Shown here: positions 352-40,539 of the stretch, piece by piece
How the letters are laid out: the number at the start of each line of letters is the position of its first letter
Position numbering within the stretch: the first letter of the stretch is position 1
Source: Planctomicrobium piriforme
Lineage (GTDB): Bacteria; Planctomycetota; Planctomycetia; Planctomycetales; Planctomycetaceae
Assembly (NCBI GenBank): GCA_945860955.1
Contig: CAMATH010000029.1
Location: forward strand, 1-64,000
DNA: 64,000 nucleotides
Reading direction: 5' to 3'
The notes under the pieces: generated by a model
What the model was told of the DNA's origin: nothing
Databases searched by the model: none
Seen by the model: the letters and a program-made list of their open reading frames with translations, nothing else
Made by a program: the position numbers and the translations under genes

Positions 352-570
352 TCAGGTCACGCCGCGCTCGAGTTCTTCCCGGGCCGGCAGTTCGGCGGCG
401 AGGAGGCGATTGAGCAGTTCGAGTTCCTGATACAGCGACAGGCGGTAGGCGGTGTGATCGACCGACTGCCCGTCAATCTGGTAGGACGGTTTGCCGCCGG
501 GTGACGTGGCGGTCAGCGCCTCCAGCTCGGCAAGGATCACAGATCGGCGGGTGACGAGCGGGTGAGACAT
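352..570 (-). CDS. small phage-like connector protein (hypothetical)
   Basis: A 72-residue protein starting MSHPLVTRRS and the last gene of the leftward head module, 349 bp after the major capsid gene. The central stretch PSYQIDGQSVDHTAYRLSLY resembles small proteins found beside capsid and portal genes, where an 'IDGQ-V-Y' segment precedes an amphipathic helix. That similarity is from memory, not a search. It has no signal peptide or membrane segment. Position after the capsid suggests a head-tail connector or head-completion role. The R1 and R2 repeats between it and the capsid gene suggest it may be transcribed less strongly. The coding call is good; the function is inferred from position. 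Confidence 0.6.
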   Translation of the reverse strand: MSHPLVTRRSVILAELEALTATSPGGKPSYQIDGQSVDHTAYRLSLYQELELLNRLLAAELPAREELERGVT

Positions 571-596
571 GGTGTGTGCAAAGAGGGGAGGACAAC

Positions 597-737
597 CATC
601 CCTGTCATCCCTTTCATCCTCTTCATCCTGTCTTGTTTTGTGACCGCCGCTCCCGTTGCAAAGTCGAATGATCAGTTGGAGCGGATTGATTAAGGTTTTC
701 TAGACAGGATGAAGAGGATGAAAGGGATGGACAGGAT
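597..737. repeat. repeat family R2, inverted pair
   Basis: A 36-38 bp purine-rich unit containing CAGGATGAAGAGGATG occurs in reverse at 597-634 and forward at 702-737, so the two arms can fold into a long hairpin with a loop of about 67 bases. Similar pairs occur at 28445-28577 and 39200-39366. With the R1 copy at 791-883 this fills the gap between the capsid gene and the 72-residue ORF; no other gene is seen there. Confidence 0.8.
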
Positions 738-790
738 CTTTTGGCGAATGTCGAGCTGGTTGTTGGGGGAGTTTTCGCAGGCGATCGTGT

Positions 791-883
791 TCCCCTCACC
801 CCCGGCCCTTCTCCCCGCAGTGGAGTTGAGTGTGCTGGGCGATGTCCATTGCGGGGAGAGGGGGTTGCGGCGGCTGCGCCGCG
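791..883. repeat. repeat family R1, second copy
   Basis: Same layout as 229-330: C-rich arm, ATTGCGGGGAGAGGGG arm and CGGCGGCTGCGCCGC palindrome, close to the 3' end of the major capsid gene. Confidence 0.8.
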
Positions 884-919
884 AGTTGTTTGGCGCGGTA
901 TAGCTCGCCAGCCTCCAGC

Positions 920-2098
920 CTACGGCGTGTTCTTCTCTATATACCGCGGCTCCAGCGTCGCTGTCGCGCCCCGTTCGCTCGCCTTCCAACGAAGAACAAC
1001 GTCGTGCGTGAACTCGACCTCCGAATTCGCCGGGGCCTGATTCACCGACAGCGGCCAATTCTCCATGTAGGCGAACGCCTTTGAGATATCGCCAATGAAC
1101 CAGTGGTTCTTGTTCGCCAGCCGGGCTGTCAGCAGGTTGCTGCTGACGACCTGATAACCGGTCACCGGGTTCGTCGCGCTCGTCTCGGTCGGATTGCCCG
1201 CCGTCGCGAAGCCGGGGGTCTGCACCCGGATCTCCGTCGCGTTCACGATCCGACGAGCCGTATAGAGCAGGTTTCGCGACACGACCAGATGCCGGGGATC
1301 GGTCAGGATCGGCTCCCCCGTGTACGGGTCGACCAGGCCGGCCATTGTCTGTTCCGCTTTGTCGAGACTCGTCCAGTCCACCAGAGGATTGACTGTCGCC
1401 GTGTTGATCCACGGGACCGCCGTCTGGTACGTCGCGTAGGTCGTCCCCTTCCAACGGTAGCGGTGGGCAGGGGTGTTTTCGTCGATGAGGCAATCGATCA
1501 CCCGCTTCTCTTTGTTGACCCCCAGAAAGTTCCCCACTTCGGCGGTTCGCTGCACGAGCAGATTCGTCCGATCGAAAAAGACCGCCTCGCGGGTGAGGCC
1601 GACGATCAGGCCGCGCTTGGTGGTCGCGGGGGTTTCGATATAGTCCTCGGCGATTCCCGCCTGTGGGTACGGCCGCCCCTCGGCGACAATCTCGGCTTCA
1701 TCACCGAGCTTCGCCAGGCCGGCGATTCTTTCGCCGTTGAACTGTGTGGGGATCGTCTTCACCAATGGCGTGAAGACAAACGCCTCGGACTCGAACGCTT
1801 CGAGAATGGCGTTGTAGACGAGCTGCCCGCTGATTCGGCTGAACGTGCCGGCGGTGATCGCGCCGGTCTCTTCGAGCAGTTGCAGGCTGTGTCCCTCTCC
1901 GCCCCGGCGGGGATTCCACGAATCGACCAGTTCACGCCCATCGGGAATGAACTGCTCGAAGAGTTCGCGGATGGAGAATTCTTCCAGACGGAGTTGGCGG
2001 GTGCGCAGCGCTTCGCCAAAGTCGTCGAAGAATCGTTGGGGGCGGGCGTCTTTGACGGCGGCGTCGTGCAGTCGTCGGAGTTGAGTAGTCTTGATCAT
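920..2098 (-). CDS. phage-like major capsid protein
   Basis: About 392 residues. It likely forms the icosahedral shell, with an HK97-type fold expected from family size and context. The sequence starts MIKTTQLRRLHDAAVKDA, and the second half has the alternating strand/helix pattern of capsid subunits, with 'RHLVVSRNLLYTARRI' and 'WFIGDISKAFAYMENWPL' near the end. No HK97-type protease-processed delta domain is obvious. Start: ATG at 2098 has AAGAG six bases upstream; an in-frame TTG at 2119 is less likely. It is fourth in the leftward operon after portal, protease and a lectin-fold-like protein, the usual phage order. Assigned by recognition of the sequence type and by synteny. No frameshift is seen. 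Confidence 0.82.
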   Translation of the reverse strand: MIKTTQLRRLHDAAVKDARPQRFFDDFGEALRTRQLRLEEFSIRELFEQFIPDGRELVDSWNPRRGGEGHSLQLLEETGAITAGTFSRISGQLVYNAILEAFESEAFVFTPLVKTIPTQFNGERIAGLAKLGDEAEIVAEGRPYPQAGIAEDYIETPATTKRGLIVGLTREAVFFDRTNLLVQRTAEVGNFLGVNKEKRVIDCLIDENTPAHRYRWKGTTYATYQTAVPWINTATVNPLVDWTSLDKAEQTMAGLVDPYTGEPILTDPRHLVVSRNLLYTARRIVNATEIRVQTPGFATAGNPTETSATNPVTGYQVVSSNLLTARLANKNHWFIGDISKAFAYMENWPLSVNQAPANSEVEFTHDVVLRWKASERGATATLEPRYIEKNTP

Positions 2099-2143
2099 GG
2101 GGAACTCTTGGGTGTGCAAAAGAAGAAGATCAATACGAAACCC

Positions 2144-2171
2144 TGGCGAGCGGGGTGGCGTCAGCCCCCTG
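2144..2171. repeat. repeat family R3, single copy
   Basis: GGCGAGCGGGGTGGCGTCAG followed by CCCCCTG, in the 75-bp spacer between the capsid gene and the gene before it. Related units occur at 2927, 4024-4111, 5792-5877, 13491, 23744, 55211 and 56891, mostly beside host genes. Confidence 0.75.
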
Positions 2172-2173
2172 CC

Positions 2174-2884
2174 TTACCGCAGTTGGTACGCCGCGATGTA
2201 ATCGACCGACACGATTTCGCTCGCGGCGGAGCCCGCTTTGGCGTAGACCCCCGCCTGAATCGCGGGGAACGCGGCGAGCGAGACGCTGTGTTTGACCGGT
2301 TGCCCGTTCACATCACGAACGGCCGCGTCGTCGACGTAAAAGGTGACCTCGGCGTTGATGGCGTCGAGCGGTTGAATCTCCACGCGCAGCGTCTGGGGAG
2401 CGGTTCCGCCAGCGGGGGTGGTGCCGACGGTAATGGTTTGAACCGCGCCTCGGGCCGACACGCAGCGCCAGACCGAATCGCCGTCCACTTTGAAGAGTCC
2501 CGTGCCATGAAAACTGGCGCGGGGACCGTTGCCGTTGTCCTGCAACAGGTCGGCGGAACCGAGGACGTCGGCGAGGCCGGCGAAGAGGTTGGCGGCGTTG
2601 ATCGCGGCCTCGGTGTATTGCAACCGGGCTTCGAAGAGGATCGGTTTGTCGTCGGCGGGGCGATAAGGGCGCTGAGTCGTTGCGACGGCGCATTCGTTGT
2701 TATCGACGGCACCGGTGGTCAGCAGCACCGCGCCGCCGGTGGACGAGGCTCCTGCCGCCACGGAAGCGCCGGCGTCCGCCGCCAGCGACGTCCAGCGGTG
2801 TGGCGACAGATACCATTCGAAGTCGTCGAAGAAGCCAAACATGCGACGGTCGCGGAGATCGTGGGGAAGATCGAGCAGCTTCAT
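2174..2884 (-). CDS. phage-like structural protein, lectin-fold-like (possible head decoration)
   Basis: A 236-residue protein, MKLLDLPHDLRD at the start, with 'FFDDFEWYL' followed by beta-rich sequence and a glycine-rich 'GGAVLLTTGAVDNNE' strand. This is the usual look of concanavalin-like jelly-roll proteins in phage head modules. It has no signal peptide or membrane segment. It sits between protease/scaffold and major capsid, so a decoration or head-stabilising role is likely. It could instead be a minor virion protein of another kind. Start: ATG at 2884. The 3' spacer to the capsid gene holds one R3 repeat, as does the 5' spacer. Confidence 0.6.
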   Translation of the reverse strand: MKLLDLPHDLRDRRMFGFFDDFEWYLSPHRWTSLAADAGASVAAGASSTGGAVLLTTGAVDNNECAVATTQRPYRPADDKPILFEARLQYTEAAINAANLFAGLADVLGSADLLQDNGNGPRASFHGTGLFKVDGDSVWRCVSARGAVQTITVGTTPAGGTAPQTLRVEIQPLDAINAEVTFYVDDAAVRDVNGQPVKHSVSLAAFPAIQAGVYAKAGSAASEIVSVDYIAAYQLR

Positions 2885-2926
2885 GAGAATCCCTTGTGAA
2901 AAGAACGAATCGTGAGAATGAACCCG

Positions 2927-2954
2927 TGGCGAGCGGGGCGGCGTCAGCCCCCTG
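2927..2954. repeat. repeat family R3, single copy
   Basis: GGCGAGCGGGGCGGCGTCAG followed by CCCCCTG, nearly identical to 2144-2171, in the spacer between the protease/scaffold gene and the lectin-fold-like gene. Confidence 0.75.
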
Positions 2955-2969
2955 CCTGCAAACGCCGCG

Positions 2970-3998
2970 CTACTTCACCGCCGCGACAAACCCCTTCAGA
3001 TCCTCCGGCAGTTTCAGCGTGTGTTCCACGCGGTCGTGCAGCGGGGGGGAGCTGTGCGGGCGTAGGCGTTGCGCGGTGTCGCGAGAGGGCCAGCTTTCGA
3101 TCAACTGCCGACGGGCTTCGTCGGTCGCCAGAGCCGACAGAGCGGCGAGTCGATGCGTGTCGCACGTGCGGTTGTGCAGTTCCAGCAGCGTCCGGCACTG
3201 CGCGTCGGTTTCGAGCTTGGTGACGCGTTCCAGCAGATCATTCAAATCGCGCGGGGGCGTGGGTTTGGAACGGTCGGCGAGTTGTTTGGACAAGTGGTCG
3301 AAGAGAGCCGGGTGATCGAGATCGGGCTGGTCGGCGATTTGTTCGACAATCCCTTCGAGGATGCCCTTTAAGAGCGCGGCACGGACCGAGCGGGGTTCGT
3401 TGGCGTCGGCGATTTCGAGCGTGCGATCGCGCAGCGTTTCGAGCAGGGGATGCGCGAGCAGTGTGTCGAGTCGCGCGTGTTCGCAGAGTTCTTGCAGCGT
3501 GGCGGTCATGGGGGGGTTCTCCGATTCAAACAGACCAAGTGACGTGGCGGGGTTCTGGACGATGTCGACGGAATGCACGCGGTCGATCGATTCGACGATG
3601 AACTGGCCATCGCGCTGAATGACGCGACCGACCGCGTTGTGAGAGAGTCCGAAGCGGCGGGGGTTACGCTCGGCGGCCTCGGCGATCATTGGGGCCTGCG
3701 GATGCGAGCGTAGGAAGTGCAGGTCGCCGAACACGCCGGTCTCGCGCACGCCAACCGAAGTCAGCCAGCCGAAACCGTCGGCGACACAACGTTCCCCCGC
3801 CGCTCCGGACGGGCGGGGATGATCCAGATTCACGGCGAGTCCCTCATAGAGGTACGCGGCCTGATTGAGAGCGGCGTCGCTGTAGACGCGGTGATTGCGG
3901 CTGGTGCGGCCGAGGATCTTGACGCCGCGAATGACACCGGCGTCGCGATCAACCGTGGGGGATTCACTGAAGGTGAGTTCGAGCAGCGGAGTGGACAT
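2970..3998 (-). CDS. prohead protease with scaffold-like C-terminus
   Basis: About 342 residues. Residues 1 to about 170 match the layout of capsid maturation proteases: 'GRTSRNHRVYS', 'LYEGLAVNLDHP' (candidate catalytic His), 'GVFGDLHFLRSHP', 'RFGLSHNAVG' (candidate Ser) and 'VHSVDIVQNPATS'. The C-terminal half is charged and helical, with heptad-like 'LNDLLERVTKLETD', as expected of a scaffold that is cut away during assembly. Protease-scaffold fusions are known in tailed phages. Start: ATG at 3998 preceded by AAAGG; an in-frame TTG at 4010 lacks this site. It lies directly after the portal gene. Confidence 0.75.
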   Translation of the reverse strand: MSTPLLELTFSESPTVDRDAGVIRGVKILGRTSRNHRVYSDAALNQAAYLYEGLAVNLDHPRPSGAAGERCVADGFGWLTSVGVRETGVFGDLHFLRSHPQAPMIAEAAERNPRRFGLSHNAVGRVIQRDGQFIVESIDRVHSVDIVQNPATSLGLFESENPPMTATLQELCEHARLDTLLAHPLLETLRDRTLEIADANEPRSVRAALLKGILEGIVEQIADQPDLDHPALFDHLSKQLADRSKPTPPRDLNDLLERVTKLETDAQCRTLLELHNRTCDTHRLAALSALATDEARRQLIESWPSRDTAQRLRPHSSPPLHDRVEHTLKLPEDLKGFVAAVK

Positions 3999-4023
3999 GA
4001 GGCCTTTCAAAAATGAGATGTTT

Positions 4024-4111
4024 TGGCGAGCCGGCCGGCGTCAGCCGCCGGGTTTTTTGCACGGTGCGATTGAAAGTCGAAAACCCGACGGCTGACGCCG
4101 GTCGGTTCGCC
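4024..4111. repeat. repeat family R3, inverted pair
   Basis: GGCGAGCCGGCCGGCGTCAG at the left arm and its near reverse complement at the right arm (GACGCCGGTCGGTTCGCC) form a long stem with a loop of about 20 bases. It fills the spacer between portal and protease genes. Confidence 0.8.
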
Positions 4112-4122
4112 ATGAGCGCGAG

Positions 4123-5595
4123 TTAGGTGGACGCCGATGACGGAGGTTGGTCATGCGACTGGTCTGCGCCTGCCTCTTCCGCGATTTGCCGGCGTTCGAC
4201 TTCAAACTCCAGTCCCGCCTGGGACGCGGCGGTTCGGCGCGACAGGATCCCGGCTTGCAATTGCAACGCCTGGGTCTGCGCGAGAGCGAGCGGGTCGCGG
4301 GAGGCGACCGCTGGCGTTCCAATTCGCAGGTCCAGCAGGGACACGAGTTGTTCCCAGGGGAGCGCGAATCGGTCGAACCGCCCGGCTTCCCAGGCGAGAC
4401 GGAGAACTTTCCAACAGAGACTTTGAAAGTGCCGACGGAAGAACTGCTGATCCGCTTCCCGAGCCTTCACGAACGGAGACTCGGCGACCAGCGTCGAAGC
4501 GTAGTTGGCATTGCTGGCGTCGCCCGAAATCAGATACTCGGGCATGTTCCACCGCAGTCCGATCGAACGGAGGACGTACTGGGCGACTTGCAAAAAGTGA
4601 GGTATGCGTTCGGAGCCGAGGGGACCGGGTTTGTATTCGAGTCCGGCCGACGGTCGCAGGATCGTCCCCGGCGGATACCGGCGGACGCGCTCGTAGCCTG
4701 TGCCCGTGGGAGACGGCCGTTCGCAGACTGGCAGTTCTCCGCGGGGATAGCCCGAAACCAGCGTCTCAGACGAACCCGGCTGGAGGATCCAGGCGATGGC
4801 GGCTTGCAGCGCGGCCCCCTCGGCGGTGTTTCGGCGGAGAATCGCCTCGCGTTCGAGGTCGGCCTGGATCGGGAGAAAGTCTGAGACTCCCCGTTTGGCG
4901 TTGCGGGGGACATTTCGGCGGACGTGTTCGACGCGCGGGGCGGGGAGGTAATCCCAATCGCGGCCGATGGCGTCGTGGATGATGTGGTAACCCAACGGGG
5001 TCGCCGAGTCGTCGAGTCGGGTGTGAACGCCAAACGACCAGCTTGAAGCGAACGACTCACCGACGCCGAGCCAGTCTTCGAGTGGCCGGGGCCGGGCGGG
5101 TTCGGTGATTTGTTCGGGTTCGAGGAACCGGAGTGCGCAACGGCCGTTGGGACGGGGGACGAGTTGCAGAAACGCCTCTCCCTCTTCGCGGCTGCGGGTG
5201 TGCAGTTCGCGATCGAGAACGCCACAAAGGTCGTTGTCGTCGAGCAGTTCGTCGAGAACTTGTTGGGCGGCCCCTTTGAGATTGTCGGGGGCCGATTCGC
5301 CTGCGATCTTGAAGGTGAACCCGGGGCCGAAGGTGTAGTTGGCGAGCGCGTCGAGCGCACCACCGGCGACCGGTGTGATGAGCGCCAGTCGGCGGGCGGC
5401 ACCGCGAATGCGGGCGAGATCGTGTTCGGTTTCGAAGAGCGGCCGGCAGCGGCCGTCGCGACGGTCGTCGAACAGCGCGCCGGGGGAGGCGATTGCGAGG
5501 TCGTCGCCCGGCGCGTTGCCTCGACAATCGATCGGTTCGCCCCACGCTTCCGGGAGTGCGAGCGAGAATAACGAGGTGTGGGATGCGGAATTCAT
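4123..5595 (-). CDS. phage portal protein
   Basis: A 490-residue protein, normal portal length. Portals form the dodecameric DNA channel at one head vertex. Typical segments are 'ARIRGAARRLALITPVAGGALDALANYTFGPGF', an acidic middle 'DELLDDNDLCGVLDREL', 'REEGEAFLQLVPRPNG' and 'FLEPEQI'. The later 'QVAQYVLRSIGLRWNMPEYLISGD' helix and 'FRRHFQSLCWKVLRLAWEAG' helices are also in the usual order. It is the first gene of the head module, 54 bases downstream of the 28-bp promoter motif at 5650-5677. No strong Shine-Dalgarno sequence is seen before the ATG. No terminase lies upstream; terL is 29 kb away at 34790-36205. Confidence 0.85.
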   Translation of the reverse strand: MNSASHTSLFSLALPEAWGEPIDCRGNAPGDDLAIASPGALFDDRRDGRCRPLFETEHDLARIRGAARRLALITPVAGGALDALANYTFGPGFTFKIAGESAPDNLKGAAQQVLDELLDDNDLCGVLDRELHTRSREEGEAFLQLVPRPNGRCALRFLEPEQITEPARPRPLEDWLGVGESFASSWSFGVHTRLDDSATPLGYHIIHDAIGRDWDYLPAPRVEHVRRNVPRNAKRGVSDFLPIQADLEREAILRRNTAEGAALQAAIAWILQPGSSETLVSGYPRGELPVCERPSPTGTGYERVRRYPPGTILRPSAGLEYKPGPLGSERIPHFLQVAQYVLRSIGLRWNMPEYLISGDASNANYASTLVAESPFVKAREADQQFFRRHFQSLCWKVLRLAWEAGRFDRFALPWEQLVSLLDLRIGTPAVASRDPLALAQTQALQLQAGILSRRTAASQAGLEFEVERRQIAEEAGADQSHDQPPSSAST

Positions 5596-5677: not shown

Positions 5678-5791
5678 TGCCCAGAGGGAATCACGCGTAT
5701 CTGGAAAAGCGCGCGGGATTTTGTTTTCGGCGCGCGAGGCATTGAGCCGATGGGCTTGAAACGGATCCTTCTCCCCGCTTTCGGGGAGTGA

Positions 5792-5877
5792 GGCGAACCG
5801 GTCGGCGTCAGCCACCGGGTCTTTTGACTTTCATGCCACAACAAAAAACCCGACGGCTGACGCCGGTCGGTTCGCCC
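5792..5877. repeat. repeat family R3, inverted pair
   Basis: GGCGAACCGGTCGGCGTCAG and GCTGACGCCGGTCGGTTCGC face each other around a loop of about 40 bases, upstream of the amidohydrolase gene and behind the head-module promoter. Confidence 0.8.
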
Positions 5878-28690: not shown

Positions 28691-30094
28691 CTACCGAGCA
28701 AGCGGTTTGTTTTCGGCGGCGTCCGATTGAGAGTTCCAGGCGATCTGGTCAAAGAGCTTCAATAACCGTTCCCCCCGCGCGGGATGGATTCCCTTCACCC
28801 AGGCGATTCGACCGGCGAGATGCTGGCGGAAGTTGGGGTGCTGGTCGCGGTTCTGTTCTGAGGGACCGGTCCGCGCGCAGTTGAACAGAATTGCCTTCAA
28901 AGTATCGAAATCGCGGCGGTCGACATTCGGTCGCTCATTGACGACAACCCCCAGCACTGACTGGCGCTTCCCCGATCGTTGGATCCGGGTCTTGCGATGT
29001 TGAATCGCGAACCCTTCATCGAGTGTGATGGCCCCGACGAAAATGCGAAATCGGCCAAGCCGGCGTTCAAACGACGCGTCGCCTGAAAAGACCAGATCGT
29101 CGGCGTAGCGCGTGTAGAACGCACCCGACTTTCGCGCCAGCCCCAGCAGCCGGCAGTCGAGTCGATAGGCGCATAGATTGGCGAGCGCTGGAGATGTCGG
29201 CGCGCCCTGTGGCAAATGCCGACGTCCGAACCGCAACCAGACCGACCTCCACGTCTCGACAGGATGAGCGGACCTCACCACTTGAGCCGGAGTCGCATTC
29301 GTGCAGAGTCCGGCCAGCAGACGGGCGACCGCCTCGGGGTATCCGATCCAGCGAAAGGTCGCCTGAATCCGTTCCACGGTGATCGAAGGAAAGAAGTCCC
29401 GCAGATCGATCGACAGCACGACCCGCTGTCCGACGTGTCCCTCGGCACAGGTGACCGGGGAATGACCCATTCGAAAGGCGTGAGCCGACGGGTGAGGGGG
29501 AATCGGGTTGAGAATCTCGGCGAGGATGCGTCGCTGAATCGCTTTGAGAAGTGGCTTGGGGTGTTCGATGAGCCGACGTCGGCCGCGACCTTTGTCGATC
29601 CAGCGATACCGGTAGCGTCGAAACCGGGTGTCGCAACGCAGCCGTTCTCTCCCCGCGACGTCGGCTAGCCAATCAAGCTGTTTTGTCGAAACGGCCAGCC
29701 AGTCGGCGAGTTCTCGGGGCGTGGTCAGCGGGGGGAGGAGGTCGGTGTACGGAATCTCCGGCATTGGCCGCATCAGGGGCGCAGGAGGGGCCACCCACAA
29801 CTCACCCGCTGCCAGCAGCAGCCGGGTCGGCGTCCGGGGACGTCGCCGTCGGAGCGCCTGGAGGAGTTGCGAGACCGGGCGTGAACGGGTAGCCAGAAAG
29901 TCGTCGAGTGCGGATTGTGTCGGGGAGGGGGGGGCGGTTCCCAACTGGAGCAGCAGCGCCTCGACGAAACCCTGAACCGCGCGTCCGGCAGCGGGGAGTT
30001 CGCACAGGTCGGCGACTCGTTCGGTGATCGCGGGGCGATCCCAGATTCCACCCAGCAGGTGGTCGCGGAGCAGTGCTTGGAAACGGGGATGCAT
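28691..30094 (-). CDS. retron-like reverse transcriptase
   Basis: 467 residues. Residues 1-125 are an N-terminal extension; the RT fingers-palm follows. Motifs: 'SAHAF' and 'CAEGH' (216-220) before motif A 'SIDLRDFFPSI' (228-238), 'PQGAPTSPALANL' (295-307), catalytic 'YTRYADD' (327-333, YADD 330-333), and 'KTRIQRSGKRQSVLGVVVN'. The order and wording are those of retron RTs such as Mx162. The retron signatures N-A-x-x-H and V-T-G read C-A-E-G-H and V-L-G here, so it may be a divergent retron or a sister clade. The 5' leader is hairpin-rich (30095-30340). No accessory effector gene is adjacent; the N-terminal extension could serve. Confidence 0.85.
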   Translation of the reverse strand: MHPRFQALLRDHLLGGIWDRPAITERVADLCELPAAGRAVQGFVEALLLQLGTAPPSPTQSALDDFLATRSRPVSQLLQALRRRRPRTPTRLLLAAGELWVAPPAPLMRPMPEIPYTDLLPPLTTPRELADWLAVSTKQLDWLADVAGRERLRCDTRFRRYRYRWIDKGRGRRRLIEHPKPLLKAIQRRILAEILNPIPPHPSAHAFRMGHSPVTCAEGHVGQRVVLSIDLRDFFPSITVERIQATFRWIGYPEAVARLLAGLCTNATPAQVVRSAHPVETWRSVWLRFGRRHLPQGAPTSPALANLCAYRLDCRLLGLARKSGAFYTRYADDLVFSGDASFERRLGRFRIFVGAITLDEGFAIQHRKTRIQRSGKRQSVLGVVVNERPNVDRRDFDTLKAILFNCARTGPSEQNRDQHPNFRQHLAGRIAWVKGIHPARGERLLKLFDQIAWNSQSDAAENKPLAR

Positions 30095-33624: not shown

Positions 33625-33906
33625 TCAATCGGCAGACCCCGGGTGGGCGTTCGTCCTGGTCCCAGAGGAAGACTCCTGGTTGTCGTTCCTCGGCGAAGGA
33701 TTGTTTCGGGCTGGCCAGCGTTTGTGTGGCGAGTGTTCGCGCGAGGTGACACGCGACTGTTTGCACCCTTCCACCCGGCAATAGCGGTATTGCACGGTTC
33801 CCAGGGTCCGCCCGACCAGTAGGGCGAGGCCGTGGTCCGGACAGACCGGCCGTTCCAAGGACTGTCGGTTGGTTTTGGTTGTTCCGCTCCGTTCGTTTCT
33901 CATCAT
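33625..33906 (-). CDS. small zinc-ribbon-like protein at the end of module B
   Basis: 93 residues, starting MMRNERSG. 'CPDHGLALL' and 'YCRVEGC' give a C-x-x-H ... C-x4-C set that could bind zinc, as in small phage transcription or DNA-binding proteins. The C-terminal third is polar and probably disordered. Start: ATG at 33906 overlaps the stop of the upstream gene (ATGATGA arrangement) and has AGGAG in front, so translation is coupled. Its position after the terminase genes suggests membership of the phage-like operon. The function is unknown. Confidence 0.6.
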   Translation of the reverse strand: MMRNERSGTTKTNRQSLERPVCPDHGLALLVGRTLGTVQYRYCRVEGCKQSRVTSREHSPHKRWPARNNPSPRNDNQESSSGTRTNAHPGSAD

Positions 33907-34355
33907 CGCTCCTGTTTGTTGTTCAAGTGTTCCATCAAGCCGTCGGTCATCCAGCGCTCGGGGGAGGTTTTGCCGAGCTGTCGCACGATTTCGTCGTGAT
34001 ACTCGGCGGAGCACCAGTCACCCAACCGTCGTTGGTCGCGCCGCCGCCTTACCTCGGCCTCGACCACCCGTTTTCCGGATGAGATCCGCAAGCCGAGACA
34101 CCAGGTCCGGGCCAGTTCCCAGGCCGACCGTTCTCCCGGATCTCCGCCGTCGGTCCATCCCGGTCGGCAGCGCTGGGCGGGACGAAAAACCCCCTCGACC
34201 CGCAAATGAAATTCGATCCCACGCTCGCCATCCTCCACCCGGATTTCACGGTCGAACATCTCTGATGTCCACGTAGTGTAGATCTGTACAAAGTCGGTGT
34301 CAACTGGGAATTTGTGCTTCGGGGAATTCGGATATTCGCGGGTCGCGGGAACCAA
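33903..34355 (-). CDS. hypothetical protein of module B; 5' end uncertain, perhaps disrupted
   Basis: About 150 residues from a TTG at 34355. The frame stays open to an ATG at 34601, but that stretch lies inside two repeat elements (34403-34780 and 34506-34630), so the native start was probably lost or replaced. Visible sequence: 'VDTDFVQIYTTWTSEMFDREIRVEDGERGIEFHLRVEGVFRPAQRC' (strand-rich), then 'SAWELARTWCLGLRIS' and a basic segment 'KRVVEAEVRRRRDQRR'. No known family is recognised. It overlaps the next gene by four bases. It may be a decaying phage gene; the product from 34601 would be 232 residues. Confidence 0.5.
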   Translation of the reverse strand: MVPATREYPNSPKHKFPVDTDFVQIYTTWTSEMFDREIRVEDGERGIEFHLRVEGVFRPAQRCRPGWTDGGDPGERSAWELARTWCLGLRISSGKRVVEAEVRRRRDQRRLGDWCSAEYHDEIVRQLGKTSPERWMTDGLMEHLNNKQER

Positions 34356-34402
34356 TGCGTAACCGCTAACCAGACCACGTAAACGGGCAAAATCCGACTC
34401 GA

Positions 34403-34780
34403 TGGGAGGGCGAACGTCCTCGTGAGCCGCCAGTGTGCGATCAACCACCAAGGACCGCCCTCTGGGCAGCGCTCGGCATCCAACCGAACCATGTTGTCGA
34501 ATTGATACCTCGCACGGCCGGAAACGAGACAATTTCGGGGAGCCGCGCCCGTCATTAAGCGGGAGTCTGATACCGCTTCCTGATGGGCGCGGCTCCATCA
34601 AAATGTCTCAACGCGGGCCGCGCGGTGTAGAAATCGACGTCGTGGACACCCCAAGCACGCGTTTGGACCACCGCGAATCCAGCGGTGGCTTCCGTGGGAA
34701 CTCGGATCGACGGCCGCCCGGAGAACGTCGTTTTTGCACTCGAAAGCACACTGGCGGCTCGGCAGGAGCCTCGCCCTCCC
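34403..34780. mobile_element. MITE-like element with terminal inverted repeats (interrupted copy)
   Basis: Ends GGGAGGGCGA...CGTGAGCC and GGCTCGGCAGGAGCCTCGCC...CTCCC are near inverted repeats. The interior matches 53797-54046 in reverse orientation almost base for base, except for an extra 125 bp at 34506-34630. Without that insert it is about 253 bp, like the other copy. No transposase is encoded, so movement would be in trans. Confidence 0.75.
34506..34630. mobile_element. nested insert carrying an R4 hairpin
   Basis: This 125-bp block is absent from the 53.8-kb copy of the surrounding element, where GTTGTCGAATTG runs straight into AAATCGATG. The insert contains the R4 inverted pair at 34540-34595. 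It shows directly that the R4-bearing sequence can be inserted. No clear target duplication is seen. Confidence 0.7.
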
Positions 34781-34789
34781 ATGACGTGT

Positions 34790-36205
34790 CTACTCCAACG
34801 ACCACCCCCGTGGATCGCAGACGTGAAACCCCATCACATCGGGGGACAACACGCCGCGTAACGAGAACTCCAGCGCGTCGGGACCGTCGTCGTGTCGGCC
34901 GGCGGGAAATTCGCGGAGTTGTCGCACCAGCAGTTCCGTCCCTGGCGAACGCACGAACCGGAATTCCCGATTCCGCAGAAACCGTCCCAGGCGCGACAGG
35001 CGGATCGGCTTGGGGACCAGATTCAGCGCGGTGGTCACTGTCACCTCTTCCAGTCCGCGAATCGCGAGTTGCTGCTGAATCTCCTTCTGAAGCAACGTGC
35101 CATAGAGATTCGATTCGACCGCGAGCGTTCGCGCCCGGTGCTTCTCGAGAAGATCCAGGGTTCGCGCCACGAAGAGCTCGGGCGGACGTCTCTCCAGAAT
35201 CGCGTCGACCCAGTAGAGATTGTCCGAGACCCCCAAGAAGACGGCGGCGGAATAGTCGCCTGAGGTGGCACCGGTCGCCGGGTCGCAACCGACCACCGAG
35301 CGCTCAAATCTGGGGGGACACTCATCGACAAACAGCGAGTCGGGAAAGTAGTCGGCCGGCCACTGCGCCACTGACCCCCGACCGGGATCCTGCTGGTACA
35401 GCGCGTCCCACCATTGGTCATCCAGGTTTTTGCGATGCCGAGACAGCCGGTCCAACGGCCACCGCTCGGGCCACAACGCGTCCCCCGGACGTCGACCAAG
35501 TGAGTCGCGGGTGGTCGCGTGCGCAGGGAGGTGCAACCGCGTGATCGCGTGCCCTTCGGGATCCTCGGAATTGGCGATCAGCCGGCCGGTCAGGTCGTCG
35601 GCGTGCCAGCGGGTGGCAATGATGATCGCGCACCCGCCCGGCTCAATGCGGGTGCTGGCGGTCGACTGCCACCAGTCCCACAGCTTGTCGCGAATGGTTT
35701 CACTCTGGGCGTCTTCGGCGTTCTTGATCGGGTCATCAATGATGAGCAGATGCGCGCCGCGGCCGGTCATCGGTCCGCCGGCCCCCGCGGTCAACATCCC
35801 TCCCGCGCGACCGTCGATTCCCCAATCGTTGGCGGCCCGCACATCGTCGCGGACGGCGACATCGAAGAGTTTCGGTCCCCACTGTTCGAGAACTTCCCGG
35901 GCGCGACGTCCCCAGGAACGGGCGAAGTGTGCCTCGTAGCCGGCGAGCATCACCTGCTTGTCGGGATAGACTCCCAGAAACCACGCCGGCAGGTATTTGC
36001 TCACCAGCTCGGATTTTCCGTGCCGGGGTGGGGCCTCGATCACCAAGAGCTGGGGACCGCCACCGACAACTGTTTTCATAATCGCCCGGTCAATCTCCAG
36101 CAGATGTTTCGCCAGCTTCCATTGCCCCTGCGACGCTGTCCGCGCAAACAACGCCGGTGTCGCAATCGAGGCCACGCGCTCGGCAATACTCGAGATAGTC
36201 GTCAT
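34790..36205 (-). CDS. phage terminase large subunit
   Basis: 471 residues. It is the ATP-driven DNA packaging motor and nuclease. Walker A-like 'EAPPRHGKSELVSK', Walker B 'LLIIDDPIKNAED', 'IIIATRWHADD' (motif III/C-type segment), and the nuclease start 'VGCDPATGATSGDYSAAVFLG', with a late 'DGPDALEFSL' Asp. Start: ATG at 36205, overlapping the preceding gene by 116 bp, which keeps the usual 50 residues before the Walker motif; ATG at 36079 would be a shorter alternative. The expected downstream portal is not here but at 4123-5595. A mobile element follows the stop. Confidence 0.88.
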   Translation of the reverse strand: MTTISSIAERVASIATPALFARTASQGQWKLAKHLLEIDRAIMKTVVGGGPQLLVIEAPPRHGKSELVSKYLPAWFLGVYPDKQVMLAGYEAHFARSWGRRAREVLEQWGPKLFDVAVRDDVRAANDWGIDGRAGGMLTAGAGGPMTGRGAHLLIIDDPIKNAEDAQSETIRDKLWDWWQSTASTRIEPGGCAIIIATRWHADDLTGRLIANSEDPEGHAITRLHLPAHATTRDSLGRRPGDALWPERWPLDRLSRHRKNLDDQWWDALYQQDPGRGSVAQWPADYFPDSLFVDECPPRFERSVVGCDPATGATSGDYSAAVFLGVSDNLYWVDAILERRPPELFVARTLDLLEKHRARTLAVESNLYGTLLQKEIQQQLAIRGLEEVTVTTALNLVPKPIRLSRLGRFLRNREFRFVRSPGTELLVRQLREFPAGRHDDGPDALEFSLRGVLSPDVMGFHVCDPRGWSLE

Positions 36206-36587
36206 GTTTCAAAACCTCGGCAAGGACGTCCTGTATGCTCACAGTGGGTCCGGTGGTTTGCGTGTGTGAATCGCCGGCGGACTCCACAGCGTCGCCCAGC
36301 GTGTCGGAACCCCGGCTGGTTTTCAGCGCGAGTGAAATCGCCCAGGAATCGCCGTTCTTGATGGCGGCACGCAACCGCAACACCGCCATCTCGAACAGTT
36401 CCGCCCGGATCGCATCCCGCTCGGCACGCAAGCGGGGAGATTCGGCGATGCGTTTCAACAACCCCTCGGGCACACATCCCAGTTTGCGAGCGGCCAGAAC
36501 CGGTTGACCCGCGGTGAGCAACAACGCCGCGATGATCTCATCATCACTCGGTCCGCGCTCCTCTGGCCAGGATTCACCGGACCTCAT
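36090..36587 (-). CDS. putative terminase small subunit
   Basis: 165 residues, starting MRSGESWPEE. Residues 15-85 look like a helical DNA-recognition region: 'DDEIIAALLLTAGQPVLAARKLGCVPEGLLKRIAESPRLRAERDAIRAELFEMAVLRLRAAIKNGD' is the usual form of small terminase or helix-turn-helix terminase partners. 'GDSWAISLALKTSRG' continues the family pattern. The start overlaps the upstream stop (ATGA) so translation is coupled. Its place immediately before terL supports the call. The C-terminus overlaps the start of terL by 116 bp, more than usual. Confidence 0.7.
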   Translation of the reverse strand: MRSGESWPEERGPSDDEIIAALLLTAGQPVLAARKLGCVPEGLLKRIAESPRLRAERDAIRAELFEMAVLRLRAAIKNGDSWAISLALKTSRGSDTLGDAVESAGDSHTQTTGPTVSIQDVLAEVLKHDDYLEYCRARGLDCDTGVVCADSVAGAMEAGETSAGD

Positions 36588-37741
36588 GGGGCGCTCCTGT
36601 TGGGAAAGGGGTCGGCGTCGGGGGAGTCGGAAATCAAACCGAACAGGCGCGCGGACATTCGGTCGGCGGGACCGATGTATTGGAATCCCGCCGTCAGTCG
36701 CCCGAGCGCAGCCGTGCGGTTGAAGGTGGCATGTTTCCCCTCGGTCCGATGCCCCAACGAGGGAGCGCGGCGCAGTTCCCAGAGCGGGCTGCGCACGCGA
36801 TGTGCGATCATTCCCGGATGTGAGGTGACACTGCAATACCGCTTCCCCGTCGCGCGGTGCATGGCGGCGACGAACTCGCTGAGTGCGTGACCGATGCCAA
36901 CCCCTTGAAAATCGGGGAGGCAGACCGTGCGGTGTTCGCGCCACAAGCCGCCTCCCGCGCCGGGCTGACTGAGTACCGCGGTGAAGGCGGCCGGCCTCCC
37001 ATCACACAGCGCCACGAAACACCGCGACGACTTGTGCAGACCACCGCTCAGATAATGATGCGAACGGAACAGGTTCCAAGCCGAGGAATGCGCGCGGACC
37101 ACGTCGAGCCGAACCCGGGGGCGTCGTTGAAGAGACCTCCATTCGAACCGATTCGATGAAGGATCGAACAGCCAGTCGGGCTGGAGCCAGTCGATGACAT
37201 CGTAATGGCAACCTACGGCGACGAGTTTTCGATTCGAACCGCGTACGGTCCGGGCGATCGCCGCGCTGCCAATGCGGGCGACCGTGCGATCGACGACCGA
37301 CGTGAATTCATCAATGACCGCCAGTTCAGGGCTTTCCGCGAGCGCGCGGGCGATGGTCGCACGGAATTGTTCGCCGGTCGAGAGGGTGGCGAACGGTCGC
37401 AACCACGCCGGGGGAGACGAAAAGCCGACGCTCGAAAGCAAACCGGTGATCTCTTTGATTCCCAAGGAAGCGGGGAATCCGTCGACCAAAGACCGGTCGG
37501 GTGGCCAATCGTATCCGCTGACGATCGCCGACCCGAATAGTTCGCGTGCGAGGGTGGATTTGCCACAGCCAGAGGGGCCGACGATCAGGCCGATCTGCCA
37601 GGGGCGCTCTTCGATCGGCAATTCGACGGTCCAGCGTTGTTCGCTGCGTTGTGAGGGAGGGATATCGAACAGCCCCTCGAGTTGGGCCACGCGGGGGGTG
37701 CGGAGGATGAGAGAGGATTTCAGGCAATCAACGCGCGGCAT
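36584..37741 (-). CDS. ABC-type ATPase fused to GNAT acetyltransferase-like domain (COG2401 type)
   Basis: 385 residues. ABC half: Walker A 'GPSGCGKST' (55-63), a degenerate signature 'LSTGEQFR' (120-127), Walker B 'LAVIDEF' (140-146) and 'AVGCHYDVIDWL' in the switch position. GNAT-like half (about 215-340): 'HYLSGGLHKSSRCFVAL', 'VCLPDFQGVGIGHALSEFVAAM' (acetyl-CoA loop), then 'SHPGMI' and a conserved C-terminal 'AGFQYIGP'. This fusion, COG2401, occurs in phage-like loci. It has no membrane partner, so it is not a transporter. The GNAT half might modify DNA or a virion protein, by comparison with Mom of phage Mu; that is speculation. Overlaps the next gene by four bases. Confidence 0.75.
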   Translation of the reverse strand: MPRVDCLKSSLILRTPRVAQLEGLFDIPPSQRSEQRWTVELPIEERPWQIGLIVGPSGCGKSTLARELFGSAIVSGYDWPPDRSLVDGFPASLGIKEITGLLSSVGFSSPPAWLRPFATLSTGEQFRATIARALAESPELAVIDEFTSVVDRTVARIGSAAIARTVRGSNRKLVAVGCHYDVIDWLQPDWLFDPSSNRFEWRSLQRRPRVRLDVVRAHSSAWNLFRSHHYLSGGLHKSSRCFVALCDGRPAAFTAVLSQPGAGGGLWREHRTVCLPDFQGVGIGHALSEFVAAMHRATGKRYCSVTSHPGMIAHRVRSPLWELRRAPSLGHRTEGKHATFNRTAALGRLTAGFQYIGPADRMSARLFGLISDSPDADPFPNRSAP

Positions 37742-38325
37742 GAGAGTCCCTCGGCGGCAAAGCGTTCGAGCAGGGTCAGTTGTTGGGCCTCGTTTTCACA
37801 GTCAATGAGGACGCAATAGCGTGAAGGAAGCGCGTCGCCCGGTGGAGATTGCACCGCCGGCGGGGTGGCTGCGGTTTCAGGCGGTGGCGGATCGCGCTGA
37901 AGGTCATCGACGGCCCGTTCCCATTCGCCCGCGAGCGCGTCGATCACTTCGGACCGGTCGAACTGTACGCAGTCGAGGAGGGTGTCGAGTTCCTGGGATT
38001 CGACGCCGGCGAGAGCCGCCAGCGGGTCGAGCGTGACCAGCAACTTGTCCGCCTCGGCTTCGGTGAGATCGAGAACCAGGACGGGGACGAGGGCTTTGGG
38101 AGTGGTCTCGGCACGCAGGTGACCATCGATCAACTGGAGCCGGCCGTCGGGAAGTTCACGGGCGAGCAACGCGTCGGCGTAACCGATTTCGGCGAGCAGG
38201 CATTTGAGCGCGGTGCGCTGGCCGGCGGGATGCGTGCGCCAGTTGTGAGGATGCGGAACGAGGTCGGCGGCGCGGACCCGACGAAGTTCACGGATGCGAT
38301 CGCGAATGGGGGGGAGGCGGGGCAT
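37720..38325 (-). CDS. ParB-like nuclease-domain protein
   Basis: 201 residues, starting MPRLPPIRDRIREL. 'LVPHPHNWRTHPAGQRTALKCLLAEIGYADALLARELPDGRLQLIDGHLRAETTP' is the ParB/Srx fold signature with 'GHLRAE' for nucleotide binding, and 'VPVLVLDLTEAEADKLLVTLDPLAALAG' follows as in phage ParB-like proteins. CTP binding or nuclease activity is possible; in phages such genes often sit beside DNA modification or packaging genes. Start: ATG at 38325; the upstream extension reads through repeat DNA. It overlaps the ABC-GNAT gene by 22 bp. No ParA is present, so chromosome segregation is unlikely. Confidence 0.82.
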   Translation of the reverse strand: MPRLPPIRDRIRELRRVRAADLVPHPHNWRTHPAGQRTALKCLLAEIGYADALLARELPDGRLQLIDGHLRAETTPKALVPVLVLDLTEAEADKLLVTLDPLAALAGVESQELDTLLDCVQFDRSEVIDALAGEWERAVDDLQRDPPPPETAATPPAVQSPPGDALPSRYCVLIDCENEAQQLTLLERFAAEGLSCRALIA

Positions 38326-38622
38326 GGGGGCGAGGGATGAAGGCGGAGGGATGAAGGCGGAGGGATGAAGGATGAAGTACGGGGGCACGTTGTTGGACGG
38401 GGGGGGCGATGGGATTCGCGCCCTCGTTCCCAAGCTCTGCTTGGGAACGCATCGTCCGAAGCTCTGCTTCGCGAGAGCATCGCAAAGAGTGTTGACGCCA
38501 CCACCGAATTGTTTGCCGCCCGAAGCAGAGCTTCGGAAGGGTGCGTTCCCAAGGAGACCTTGGGAACGAGATCTGTTTCCCTGTGAGACCATCATGTTCT
38601 GATTTCGTGCCACAGCGTGACT
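38326..38622. repeat. repeat-rich spacer inside module B
   Basis: Contains two GAGGGATGAAGGCGGAGGGA tandem units (38335-38370) and pairs of 'CCAAGCTCTGCTTGGGAACG'-type and 'CGAAGCTCTGCTTCG'-type palindromes at 38428-38480 and 38515-38570, in inverted arrangement. These resemble host repeat families. No gene is supported. Confidence 0.65.
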
Positions 38623-38964
38623 TCAGTCCCTGACTTGTAAGGCGCACACACCGGCACGGACGTTGCCTCGGGTTGTGTTGACGGTGATTGTGAGGCGGTA
38701 GTTGGTGTCGGGTGTTCCGCCAGTGATGCGGAATTGAACTCCCGCGCCTGTCGGTACGGTGCCGGCGGTCTCGTTGCTGAAGGGGGTTGAGTTGATCGAC
38801 GCGGGGCCGATTTCCAGATCAGAGGGCTCGACGCTGACTGACACGGGCGCGGTGAGCAGTTCGCCACTGGCGAGCAGGCGACGGAAATCGACGCCGAACA
38901 GAATCGACTCGGCGGGATGTTTGACCAGAGGTCGAACGGCGGAGACAGAGAGCGAGGCGGACAC
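38623..38964 (-). CDS. phage fiber-tail adaptor-like protein (Ig-like)
   Basis: 113 residues. 'PLVKHPAESILFGVDFRRLLASGELLTAPVSVSV', then 'GVQFRITGGTPDTNYRLTITVNTTRGNVRAGVCALQV' is the pattern of small beta-sandwich proteins described as phage fiber-tail adaptors: K-P-x-x..D-Y-x-F-D-W..LxxGExI..., followed by GG-TxxTxYxLTxxVxTxxGR. Ours keeps the order with some replaced residues. It should connect tail or fiber components in the virion. The gene starts four bases downstream of the stop of the 69-residue ORF. Module B otherwise lacks clear tail tube or tape measure genes. Confidence 0.7.
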   Translation of the reverse strand: MSASLSVSAVRPLVKHPAESILFGVDFRRLLASGELLTAPVSVSVEPSDLEIGPASINSTPFSNETAGTVPTGAGVQFRITGGTPDTNYRLTITVNTTRGNVRAGVCALQVRD

Positions 38965-38967
38965 GAT

Positions 38968-39177
38968 TCAGCTCCAGAAAAACGTCCACAAACCGCCGCG
39001 TGGCGGCAGAGACCACGCGTCGCCGCGCGAGGGGATCTTCCACGTGTCGTCGCGGGGAGACAACGACGCGACCCGCTCGACAACGGAATCAGACGAAGGG
39101 GGTGGTGAAACGACCACAGTCGGCCGCCAGTAAGCCGGGGCAAACCAGGGGGTAGGGAAATAGGGGAGGGGGAACAT
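38968..39177 (-). CDS. small Trp/Pro-rich protein of module B (hypothetical)
   Basis: 69 residues: MFPLPYFPTPWFAPAYWRPTV, then 'DDTWKIPSRGDAWSLPPRGGLWTFFWS'. The C-terminal part has a repeated W-x(1,2)-P-x-R-G-x-x-W-x-P pattern, so it may be a small structural peptide or an adaptor. It lies between two virion-like genes with a gap of only three bases to the next one, which supports it being real. No family is recognised. An alternative view is that it is a chance ORF in the operon. Confidence 0.5.
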   Translation of the reverse strand: MFPLPYFPTPWFAPAYWRPTVVVSPPPSSDSVVERVASLSPRDDTWKIPSRGDAWSLPPRGGLWTFFWS

Positions 39178-39579
39178 GATTTGACGGACGGAAAGGGGGG
39201 ACAGGATGAAAGGAATGAAGAGGATGGACAGGATAAGGACGAGCGCAGGAGAGAATCGGAGAACTGAGAATTGGGTTTTTCAGGATGTAGGATTCCACGA
39301 TTCGCTCAATATCTTCCGCCTGCCCCTTGTAAATCCTGTCCATCCCTTTCATCCTCTTCATCCTATCAAAAATCGTCCTGCTAACGACCACACTCCGGAC
39401 AGCGATGCCGTCGGTTGGTTGGACGGACGGAAAAGGGGGACAGGATGAAAGGGATGAAAAGGATGGACAGGATTTGGACGAGTGCGGGAGGGAGTCGGCG
39501 GATAGGGGTGGGGTCGTCTGGAAGGGGGGATTTCACGATTCGCTCAACATCTTTCGCCTGCCGTTTGTAGATCCTGTGG
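39178..39579. repeat. R2 repeat block, duplicated
   Basis: R2 arms at 39200-39234 (forward) and 39333-39366 (reverse), then a second forward copy at 39439-39472 with a decayed partner near 39569. The blocks 39183-39345 and 39420-39575 are tandem copies (shared CACGATTCGCTCAA stretch). No gene is seen. The block interrupts the phage-like operon. Confidence 0.75.
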
Positions 39580-40539
39580 CTATTCTGCGTCCGTCACCAC
39601 CGTGGTCCGGTTGCCTGTCGCGTCGACGGTCGCTGTCACGCGGTTTTTGCCGTCCGCTTTGTCGCGAAACGTGAACGGGCCATTTGGAAAGCCGGCGGAT
39701 TTTCCCACGCAGACGGCGCGGAGGAGTCGCAGGGTTTGCCTGGGGGATTCTCCTGGTTCAATCCCGTCGATCCTGTCGAGCAGAGTGTCGGCGACCGCCA
39801 CGCGTTCCGCTGGCGTCAGGCTGGCGACAATCGTCGCGTCGGCACGCGCCTCGAGACTGTCGGTCGCATTGTCAAAAGTGCCACCCAGATCGCTTGGGGT
39901 GAGTGTCGGGTCTTTACGCATCAAGGAGCGCAGAAAACCGAGTACGGTGTTGAGGCCGGTTCCAGTGAACGCGCCGAGGCGCGCCAAGAGCGTCTCCTGA
40001 TTCGCCGACGTCGCGTCGCCTCGTGTCGACACCGCGACATCGACCAGATCAAGTCGAGCGGCTCGGGCCGGCGTGTAGTCGACGCCGGCGGCGCGACTGC
40101 CAATCGACGTGTCGAGCCGGCTGGGGGATCCGACTCCGCGCAGCGGATCGCAAAGCTGAATCTGAAACGGGGTCGGCACCAGACTGACGGCACCGTAGAG
40201 CATGCCTCCCAGACTGCGGCGGTCTCCCGTACTATCAAACAGCGCGTCGGCGAACTGCAGTTCGTACCACCCGGGGAGTGTGGTCGGATCGATCTCCCGA
40301 AGTCGACAGTGCCCCACCGGCGGCGCGACATAGGTGCCAACATTCGCGATCGGGCCGATGGTTCCCGACGCCGCCGAGTAGACAATTGGCGCGGCATCGC
40401 CCGGTCGAATGACGGCGATCGCCAGATTGGCCGACGTTGGGTTGAGTCCCGTCCGGCCTTGGCCGCTGTTGGAACTGGCGTCGGGAAGAAAGACATGCAG
40501 CACGACCGACGTCGCGCCCCGTTCGATGATCTCTTTCAT
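39580..40539 (-). CDS. phage-like structural protein (hypothetical)
   Basis: 319 residues, MKEIIERGATSVVLHVFLPDASSN at the start. 'TGLNPTSANLAIAVIRPGDA', 'LPGWYELQFADALFD' and 'GAVSLVPTPFQIQLCD' form a beta-rich N-terminal domain of the type seen in tail or fiber-associated proteins. A helical middle 'ETLLARLGAFTGTGLNTVLGFLRSLMRKDP' is followed by 'LTPSDLGGTFDNATDSLEAR' and a strand-rich end with 'DKADGKNRVTATVDATGNRTTVVTDAE'. Start: ATG at 40539 overlaps the preceding stop (ATGA), so translation is coupled. The longer ORF start at 40680 is rejected because it lies inside the upstream gene. Confidence 0.6.
   Translation of the reverse strand: MKEIIERGATSVVLHVFLPDASSNSGQGRTGLNPTSANLAIAVIRPGDAAPIVYSAASGTIGPIANVGTYVAPPVGHCRLREIDPTTLPGWYELQFADALFDSTGDRRSLGGMLYGAVSLVPTPFQIQLCDPLRGVGSPSRLDTSIGSRAAGVDYTPARAARLDLVDVAVSTRGDATSANQETLLARLGAFTGTGLNTVLGFLRSLMRKDPTLTPSDLGGTFDNATDSLEARADATIVASLTPAERVAVADTLLDRIDGIEPGESPRQTLRLLRAVCVGKSAGFPNGPFTFRDKADGKNRVTATVDATGNRTTVVTDAE

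Follow-up and report, generated by a model that had tools for sequence, protein, structure and literature searches.

The 64,000-nt stretch analysed here (the window) comprises bases 1-64000 of contig C29 (68,602 bp) in G000, the 8.4-Mb, 282-contig genome assembly of Planctomicrobium piriforme. It carries two separate blocks of tailed-phage genes, a structural unit for head proteins (window 352-5595) and a packaging unit that includes the terminase large subunit, TerL (window 33903-41579). The TerL and portal genes are 29.2 kb apart on the same strand of one 68.6-kb contig, and the spacer includes gyrB, dnaN, gyrA, a reverse transcriptase gene and other genes. We judge it reasonably probable that the two blocks are parts of one domesticated virion gene set that is chromosomal, largely vertically inherited and similar to a gene transfer agent (GTA). 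A wider proposal, to which we give an even chance, is that GTA-like systems arose within one planctomycete family by domestication of at least two different tailed phages. The terminase, portal, capsid and tail genes would later have been dispersed, in the extreme to four places (G004 and G060; up to 2.8 Mb in G004), leaving a particle that is under the joint control of the host and never packages itself.

Relatives were sought in a family sample of 120 genomes, 94 of good quality, in a phylum sample of 392 genomes, and in IMG/VR. The IMG/VR capsid scans were seeded by short peptide patterns, so the capsid counts from this source are lower bounds. The element type of the window is designated type B, and a second, more frequent type found in the same family is designated type A.

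Two units of phage-derived genes

Features of the structural unit and of the packaging unit are as follows.

352-570, minus strand: 72-aa gene 3′ of the capsid gene, probably for head completion, as judged from its position
920-2119, minus strand: major capsid protein (PF25209, E = 4.1e-17)
2174-2884, minus strand: 236-aa predicted beta-sandwich protein with a lectin-like fold, between protease and capsid
2970-4010, minus strand: putative prohead protease with a fused, scaffold-like C-terminal region (phrog_29592, function not given, E = 3.7e-8)
4123-5595, minus strand: portal protein (phrog_21, E = 1.9e-29; PF05136 above cutoff)
5753-5876, strand not assigned: host repeats just 5′ of the portal gene, palindromic and like repetitive extragenic palindromes (REP-like)
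33903-34259, minus strand: 118-aa gene 3′ of TerL, with a homologue (36% over 87 codons) 3′ of TerL in G057 contig C211
34790-36205, minus strand: TerL (phrog_38, E = 2.1e-87)
36090-36587, minus strand: small terminase subunit-like (TerS-like) protein, named by position, N-terminus helix-turn-helix-like by eye
36584-37741, minus strand: ABC-type ATPase fused to a GNAT-like domain (ABC-GNAT; phrog_11143, E = 4.6e-104; PF00005 and PF00583 above cutoffs)
37720-38325, minus strand: ParB-like protein (phrog_620, E = 5.1e-8; phrog_498, E = 3.7e-9)
38623-38964, minus strand: 113-aa gene, with relatives beside ParB in G062, G099 and G057
39580-40539, minus strand: 319-aa protein, possibly a fibre, without a PHROG match
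40536-41579, minus strand: 347-aa protein at the upstream end of the packaging unit, without a PHROG match

The preliminary description of this DNA, which covered positions 920-5595, reported five leftward genes in phage order with intact frames. The order portal, protease/scaffold, 236-aa protein, capsid and 72-aa protein is borne out, with the fifth gene lying outside that range at 352-570, and the window copies of the phage-derived genes have no internal stops. All five head genes were scored as coding by codon scoring, which was trained on the capsid, protease and portal genes among others, leaving the 72-aa and 236-aa genes as the independent check. Orthologues of the 72-aa gene occupy the same place in G079, G046, G062 and G084.

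In the protease alignment, 4 of the 22 sequences match the head maturation protease family phrog_207 (best E = 1.8e-6), one matches the phage scaffold family PF06810, and H60, S119 and D145 are invariant in all 22. For the protease, AlphaFold2 without an alignment gave a model with a mean predicted local distance difference test score (pLDDT) of 35, which was discarded. The model of the 236-aa protein has a mean pLDDT of 67 and a predicted template modelling (TM) score of 0.74, residues 1-51 being under 50 in pLDDT. Its best Foldseek match has an E of 2.4e-07; the 50 matches listed are mostly lectin, carbohydrate-recognition and alginate-lyase folds, at TM-scores of about 0.3-0.6. Its position suggests a capsid decoration protein, and one might conjecture that the modelled lectin-like fold would suit a decoration that binds cell-surface sugars. 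A sequence search of the PDB with protease, capsid and portal gave no relatives of note. The phage collection contains no match to the type A capsid, the type B capsid or the window portal; 1,754 of its records match the window terminase, distantly.

The packaging unit reads, from 41579 down to 33903, 347-aa, 319-aa, 113-aa, ParB-like, ABC-GNAT, TerS-like, TerL and 118-aa genes. In TerL, G63 K64 S65, D157 D158, D308, E364 and D439 D440 are invariant in 8 sequences, and we take these motifs to be the ATPase and nuclease residues. The TerS-like protein has a weak match (E = 0.0035) to a family of unknown function in PHROG, and relatives are found at the same place in G062, G099 and G046 and beside the portal in G057. 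The ParB/ABC-GNAT/TerS/TerL core is also present in G099 (C381) and G062 (C799). It is partial in G046 (C281, which begins inside the ABC-GNAT gene) and G084 (C191), and in G057 (C211) it has no TerS match. The preliminary description was right that the terminase stands apart, and the gene belongs to another conserved unit within the one phage-derived set. G057 contains five matches to the window terminase in all (C211, C31, C47, C273 and C271), possibly including other prophages.

Tail genes

Base 1 of the window coincides with the end of contig C29, so the absence of tail genes cannot be read from the window. In G079, the closest relative found, the capsid gene is followed directly on one contig by genes for proteins resembling neck, tail terminator and tail tube and for a 235-aa protein, and G000 carries the same four genes on C267, a contig of 4,045 bp. 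From the gene order in G079, C267 probably continues C29 directly; the facing ends of the two contigs have nothing but repeats in common. The tube-like gene of G000 matches the tail family phrog_290 (E = 7.4e-19), and the type B names neck and tail-terminator are based on position. An early reading without a tail was therefore dropped, and with it the view of the structural unit as half of a head module, since the contig end cuts its left side. Of the parts previously listed as missing (terminase, tail, lysis and integrase genes), the terminase is indeed elsewhere and tail genes are on C267. No integrase or lysis gene was found among the window proteins scanned, a subset of those encoded there; no genome-wide search was made.

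Of 13 genomes searched with a tail-tip profile (A7), 5 gave a match. The congeners G046 and G099 are among them, as are G062 and G086, from which sequences of the profile itself were taken. A type A tail protein used as query gave no match in G000.

Separation of terminase from portal

G046, G099 and G062 each have the packaging and structural units on different contigs, and no terminase match was seen upstream of their portals over the 27.9 kb, 14.6 kb and about 1.2 kb visible, respectively. In G057, the portal is accompanied by a TerS-like gene near gyrB. The capsid was not found in G057, nor a TerL match in G079. A more distant TerL is located directly 5′ of the portal in G030, G093, G106 and G002, and IMG/VR contigs with the same capsid family (for example L136, L191, L134, L141 and L170) have TerL, portal, protease and capsid in one row. 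Twenty-three viral loci include a capsid and show 3 kb or more of sequence ahead of the portal; in 19 of them TerL is 5′ of the portal on the same strand, at -75 to 2,894 bp. Among these 19, ParB is present in 11 and ABC-GNAT in 7. Since TerL adjoins the portal in most of these loci, the split in the window is most likely the derived state.

The portal is about 8 kb 3′ of gyrB in both G000 and G057. As the orientation is opposite and different genes lie between, this shared location was set aside as a possible coincidence.

Selection and descent of type B

The nine structural-unit genes compared between G000 and G079 have ratios of nonsynonymous to synonymous substitution rates (dN/dS) of 0.018-0.31, indicating purifying selection. 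The lowest is that of the capsid (0.018; 99% identity), followed by protease (0.043), the lectin-like protein (0.071), portal (0.10) and tail tube (0.106). The 72-aa gene has 0.31 over 70 codons, and the remaining values are 0.147, 0.166 and 0.209. Synonymous divergence (dS) for the nine genes is 0.15-0.27, and that of gyrB is 0.223 (dN/dS 0.037). The phage-derived genes have therefore diverged for about as long as gyrB, and under constraint. Intact frames and purifying selection together indicate that this is not a decaying prophage; the preliminary description, too, had set the intact frames against a decayed prophage. Between G000 and G046, the capsid is 82% and gyrB 85% identical, and dS is near saturation.

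One stop each was encountered in two comparisons with relatives, in TerS of G099 and ABC-GNAT of G046, where the alignment extends past the end of the open frame. In-frame stops in G089 were examined as recoding or pseudogenes and rejected. That in gyrB (L091) precedes the conserved part, the aligned parts of three other loci tested alongside it having no stop, and in TerL the match overshoots the open frame at its start.

In the portal tree, G000, G079, G046, G057 and G062 group as they do for gyrB, except that the order of G057 and G062 differs. G099 and G106 were left out of the portal-gyrB trees because only a second gyrB-like gene was found there. The capsid tree, which includes 78 viral-contig rows, recovers the window genus and G084 as one supported set, together with viral contig L115, which is indistinguishable from the G099 copy. 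Some IMG/VR contigs that carry the type B module may be host DNA. The planctomycete capsid sets are nested within viral diversity, and the origin of the gene set is phage. IMG/VR yielded 103 type B capsid relatives, of which 80 were kept.

A parallel element across the family

Portals related to that of the window were detected in 54 of the 120 family genomes and capsids in 55, mostly one per genome (44 and 42, respectively, of the 94 of good quality). Ten of the 54 portal genomes are type B, with portals 37-100% identical to the window portal. In the other 44 genomes the portals are approximately 27-36% identical to it, and every one examined proved to be type A. Among type A capsids, eight share 73-77% identity with a ninth. 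A complete type A row consists of ParB-like, ABC-GNAT, TerS-like, TerL, portal, protease, a small gene, capsid, and neck- and tail-like genes.

Near-complete assemblies (6 contigs or fewer) account for 11 of the 54 genomes, all type A. With a row counted as broken where a gap exceeds 15 kb, the type A row is broken in 9 of these 11 (7 of 9 genera), and 7 of the 9 are single contigs. The splits fall between terminase and portal, portal and capsid, or capsid and tail, at one or more of these points, and measure 24 kb to 2.8 Mb. TerL and portal are 42-229 kb apart in G033, G040, G070, G074 and G004, and portal and capsid 24 kb to 2.8 Mb apart in G007, G018, G066, G089, G070 and G004. G004 has terminase, portal, capsid and tail in four locations, with portal and tail only about 14 kb apart on opposite strands, and in the congeneric G060 each of the four is on a contig of its own.

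Type A genes are also under constraint. Between G066 and G089, dN/dS is 0.020-0.365 over 14 genes, with dS of 0.13-0.29, and gyrB has 0.030 with dS of 0.33; 15 genes were queried, and the protease was without a match in the retrieved stretch. For G033 and G074 the values are 0.060 (portal), 0.140 (protease), 0.076 (TerL) and 0.020 (gyrB), the capsid being outside the stretch. For G004 and G060, most dS values were saturated and were left out. Portal and gyrB distances in 20 type A genomes are correlated (Mantel r = 0.482, matched by 0 of 2000 shuffles).

The type A capsid profile matches 25 of the 392 phylum genomes. Fifteen matches have E below 1e-160, all in this family; one match in another family has an E of 1.4e-74, and the other nine, including that in G000, are weaker. 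A single type A capsid contig was found in IMG/VR. More distant type A-like capsids occur in other families of the phylum (G235, G279, G315, G427, G433, G439, G456, G466 and G159). Contig C1 of G007 has type A head and terminase genes and no match to the tail profile, possibly a partial loss.

Interpretation and alternatives

In the GTA-like arrangement that we favour, TerL and the TerS-like protein would pump host DNA through the portal into heads matured by the protease, the tail would deliver the packaged host DNA to other cells, and no particle would carry a full gene set of its own. As the genes are scattered over the chromosome, none of the packaged fragments can contain them all, as would suit a GTA but not a virus. 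In favour of this arrangement are the intact and constrained genes, the separation of the units in several related species, their origin in a phage family that usually has terminase beside portal, the gyrB-like grouping in the portal tree, the intact TerL key residues and the host repeats in gaps of the structural unit, and type A offers a stronger parallel.

A temperate prophage recently broken by rearrangement and heading for decay is an unlikely source of the same picture. The virion genes are phage-like and have relatives in IMG/VR contigs, the tail tip was not found in G000 or G079, and the type B copy of G086 has portal-to-tail genes with a tyrosine integrase (contig C1; L041 and L067), all in its favour; yet the frames are intact, dN/dS of 0.02-0.31 goes with gyrB-like dS, and the units are likewise apart in G046, G099 and G062. 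G086 also bears type A genes on four contigs (C13, C48, C75 and C18). Domesticated phage parts could instead have been kept for some other use, for example as a capsid compartment or a killing particle. We regard this too as improbable, given that portal, protease, neck and tail genes and a TerL with intact key residues are all kept and that a DNA-packaging motor would be superfluous for a shell or a tail weapon. What speaks for it are the tail-tip genes undetected in G000 and G079 and, in type A, the head and terminase genes of G007 without a tail-profile match. Least probable is an artefact of assembly or binning, in which chimeric or broken contigs make the units seem separate. G000 is in 282 contigs with the structural unit at a contig end, and contig C501 of G079 contains a run of N; against this, a single 68.6-kb contig carries the two units with gyrB, dnaN and gyrA in the spacer, three other genomes have them on different contigs, and seven of the nine split type A genomes are single contigs.

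Several observations weigh against a domesticated, vertically inherited GTA-like set. Most type B genomes are fragmented assemblies. The tail-tip profile has no match in G000 or G079, through gene loss or non-assembly. The TerS gene evolves fast (dN/dS 0.39-0.90), and by-eye inspection suggests that the TerS-like proteins of both types keep a helix-turn-helix-like segment. No TerL is in view in 4 of the 23 viral loci (L116, L119, L190 and L193). With types A and B pooled (28 genomes), the Mantel r of 0.309 is below the largest shuffle (0.341). In the gyrB tree, the sister of the window's group, with support, is G058, a type A genome; simple inheritance therefore does not explain type B in G030 and G093, which needs a separate gain, or loss elsewhere. 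The type B copy of G086 is an outlier in the portal/gyrB comparison, G062 joins G030/G093 and two viral contigs in the capsid tree, and exchange with phages is possible because type B capsid relatives are common in IMG/VR. Finally, the core word of the REP-like repeats described below does not occur in L053 and L054, which are congener loci, so this repeat is not common to the whole genus.

Comparison with known gene transfer agents

GTAs are described as having tailed-phage-like particle components, as fully endogenised, often at multiple loci, and as mostly vertically inherited; they package mostly random host DNA in a head too small for their own genome and deliver it to other cells (PMC9662315). 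The set found here includes TerL, portal, protease/scaffold, capsid, and neck-, terminator- and tube-like proteins, with the tip not found in G000. It occupies multiple loci, divided over 29 kb around gyrB-dnaN-gyrA in the window and broken in 9 of 11 near-complete type A genomes. Descent appears mostly vertical from the gyrB-like dS and the type A Mantel result (0 of 2000 shuffles), with exceptions in G086, G030/G093 and G062. A contiguous genome with an integrase, as in an intact prophage, was not seen, no integrase being among the window proteins scanned; the G086 copy provides the contrast.

The GTA of R. capsulatus (RcGTA), the genes of which are at five loci, and the RcGTA-like elements (Rhodogtaviriformidae) are alike in having phage-derived head-tail genes, mostly vertical descent and several loci (PMC9662315). 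PF05065 is a family of putative GTA capsids (PMC8346489), whereas the window capsid matches PF25209 only, with no PF05065 match and no GTA-named NCBIfam model among its matches. Terminase and portal are separated here, as are portal and capsid in type A, and the host phylum is Planctomycetota. Known GTA small terminases are said to lack a detectable DNA-binding domain (PMC11841831), and the TerS-like protein here seems, by eye, to retain a DNA-binding segment. The GTAs of Brachyspira, Desulfovibrio, Methanococcus voltae and Bartonella are separate phage domestications, as the window set would be. These are experimentally supported, whereas the window set is read from gene content. The type B contigs in IMG/VR (e.g. 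L136 and L191) contain the same gene families in the order TerL-portal-protease-(lectin-like or other small gene)-capsid-72 aa-neck-tail. They are contiguous, whereas the window lineage is split by housekeeping genes and has host repeats in its gaps.

For planctomycetes, a Zavarzinella prophage terminase that is close to those of RcGTA-like elements (PMC7947584), encapsulins in anammox species (PMC8346489), incomplete prophages in hot-spring members (PMC8597652) and ecological counts (PMC12507015, PMC11694666) have been reported, and the GTA of PMC13055281 belongs to a Rhodobacteraceae genome. No GTA in planctomycetes was found in open PMC full texts, covered mostly at abstract level. If the GTA-like reading is true, gene transfer by domesticated phage particles reaches a bacterial group in which the open literature yielded none. 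Prophage finders would probably overlook such systems, because they seek clusters and the core genes here are scattered.

Host repeats and gene-order scrambling

The REP-like repeat pattern has 67 matches in the G000 genome and none for the control. Five lie in gaps of the structural unit (window 2928, 4025, 4090, 5792 and 5855), and other dispersed repeats are found in further gaps. The core word, with 7 occurrences in the window, is rare in the 79 viral loci, where 993 kb contain 13. Homology between G000 and G079 5′ of the portal stops at about 5721, beside the REP-like repeats, which could drive the rearrangements. Downstream (3′) of gyrB, G000 and G079 share one more gene and then diverge in content over the 20 kb fetched of the G079 contig. 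Dispersal of the phage-derived genes is probably due to general gene-order scrambling in these chromosomes, from which selection would protect operons such as portal-to-tail.

Other genes of the window

An Rfam scan of the window gave no match. The spacer reverse transcriptase (28691-30094, minus strand) matches PF00078 (E = 1.5e-18), and its best matches among the PADLOC retron-set reverse transcriptase models are RT_other (E = 4e-151) and RT_outgroup (E = 3.4e-141). PADLOC and Pfam searches of the neighbouring genes returned, on the defence side, this reverse transcriptase and otherwise weak ABC or helix-turn-helix matches. Partial relatives of the 319-aa protein are present beside the packaging unit in G057 C211 and in viral locus L166, and a relative of the 347-aa protein is present in viral locus L122 (E = 4e-17). 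The ABC-GNAT fusion belongs to a phage cassette. It has distant matches in 70 phage records of many hosts, 31 of which cover at least 80% of the protein, and in Gordonia phage Jace its gene adjoins a ParB-like gene.

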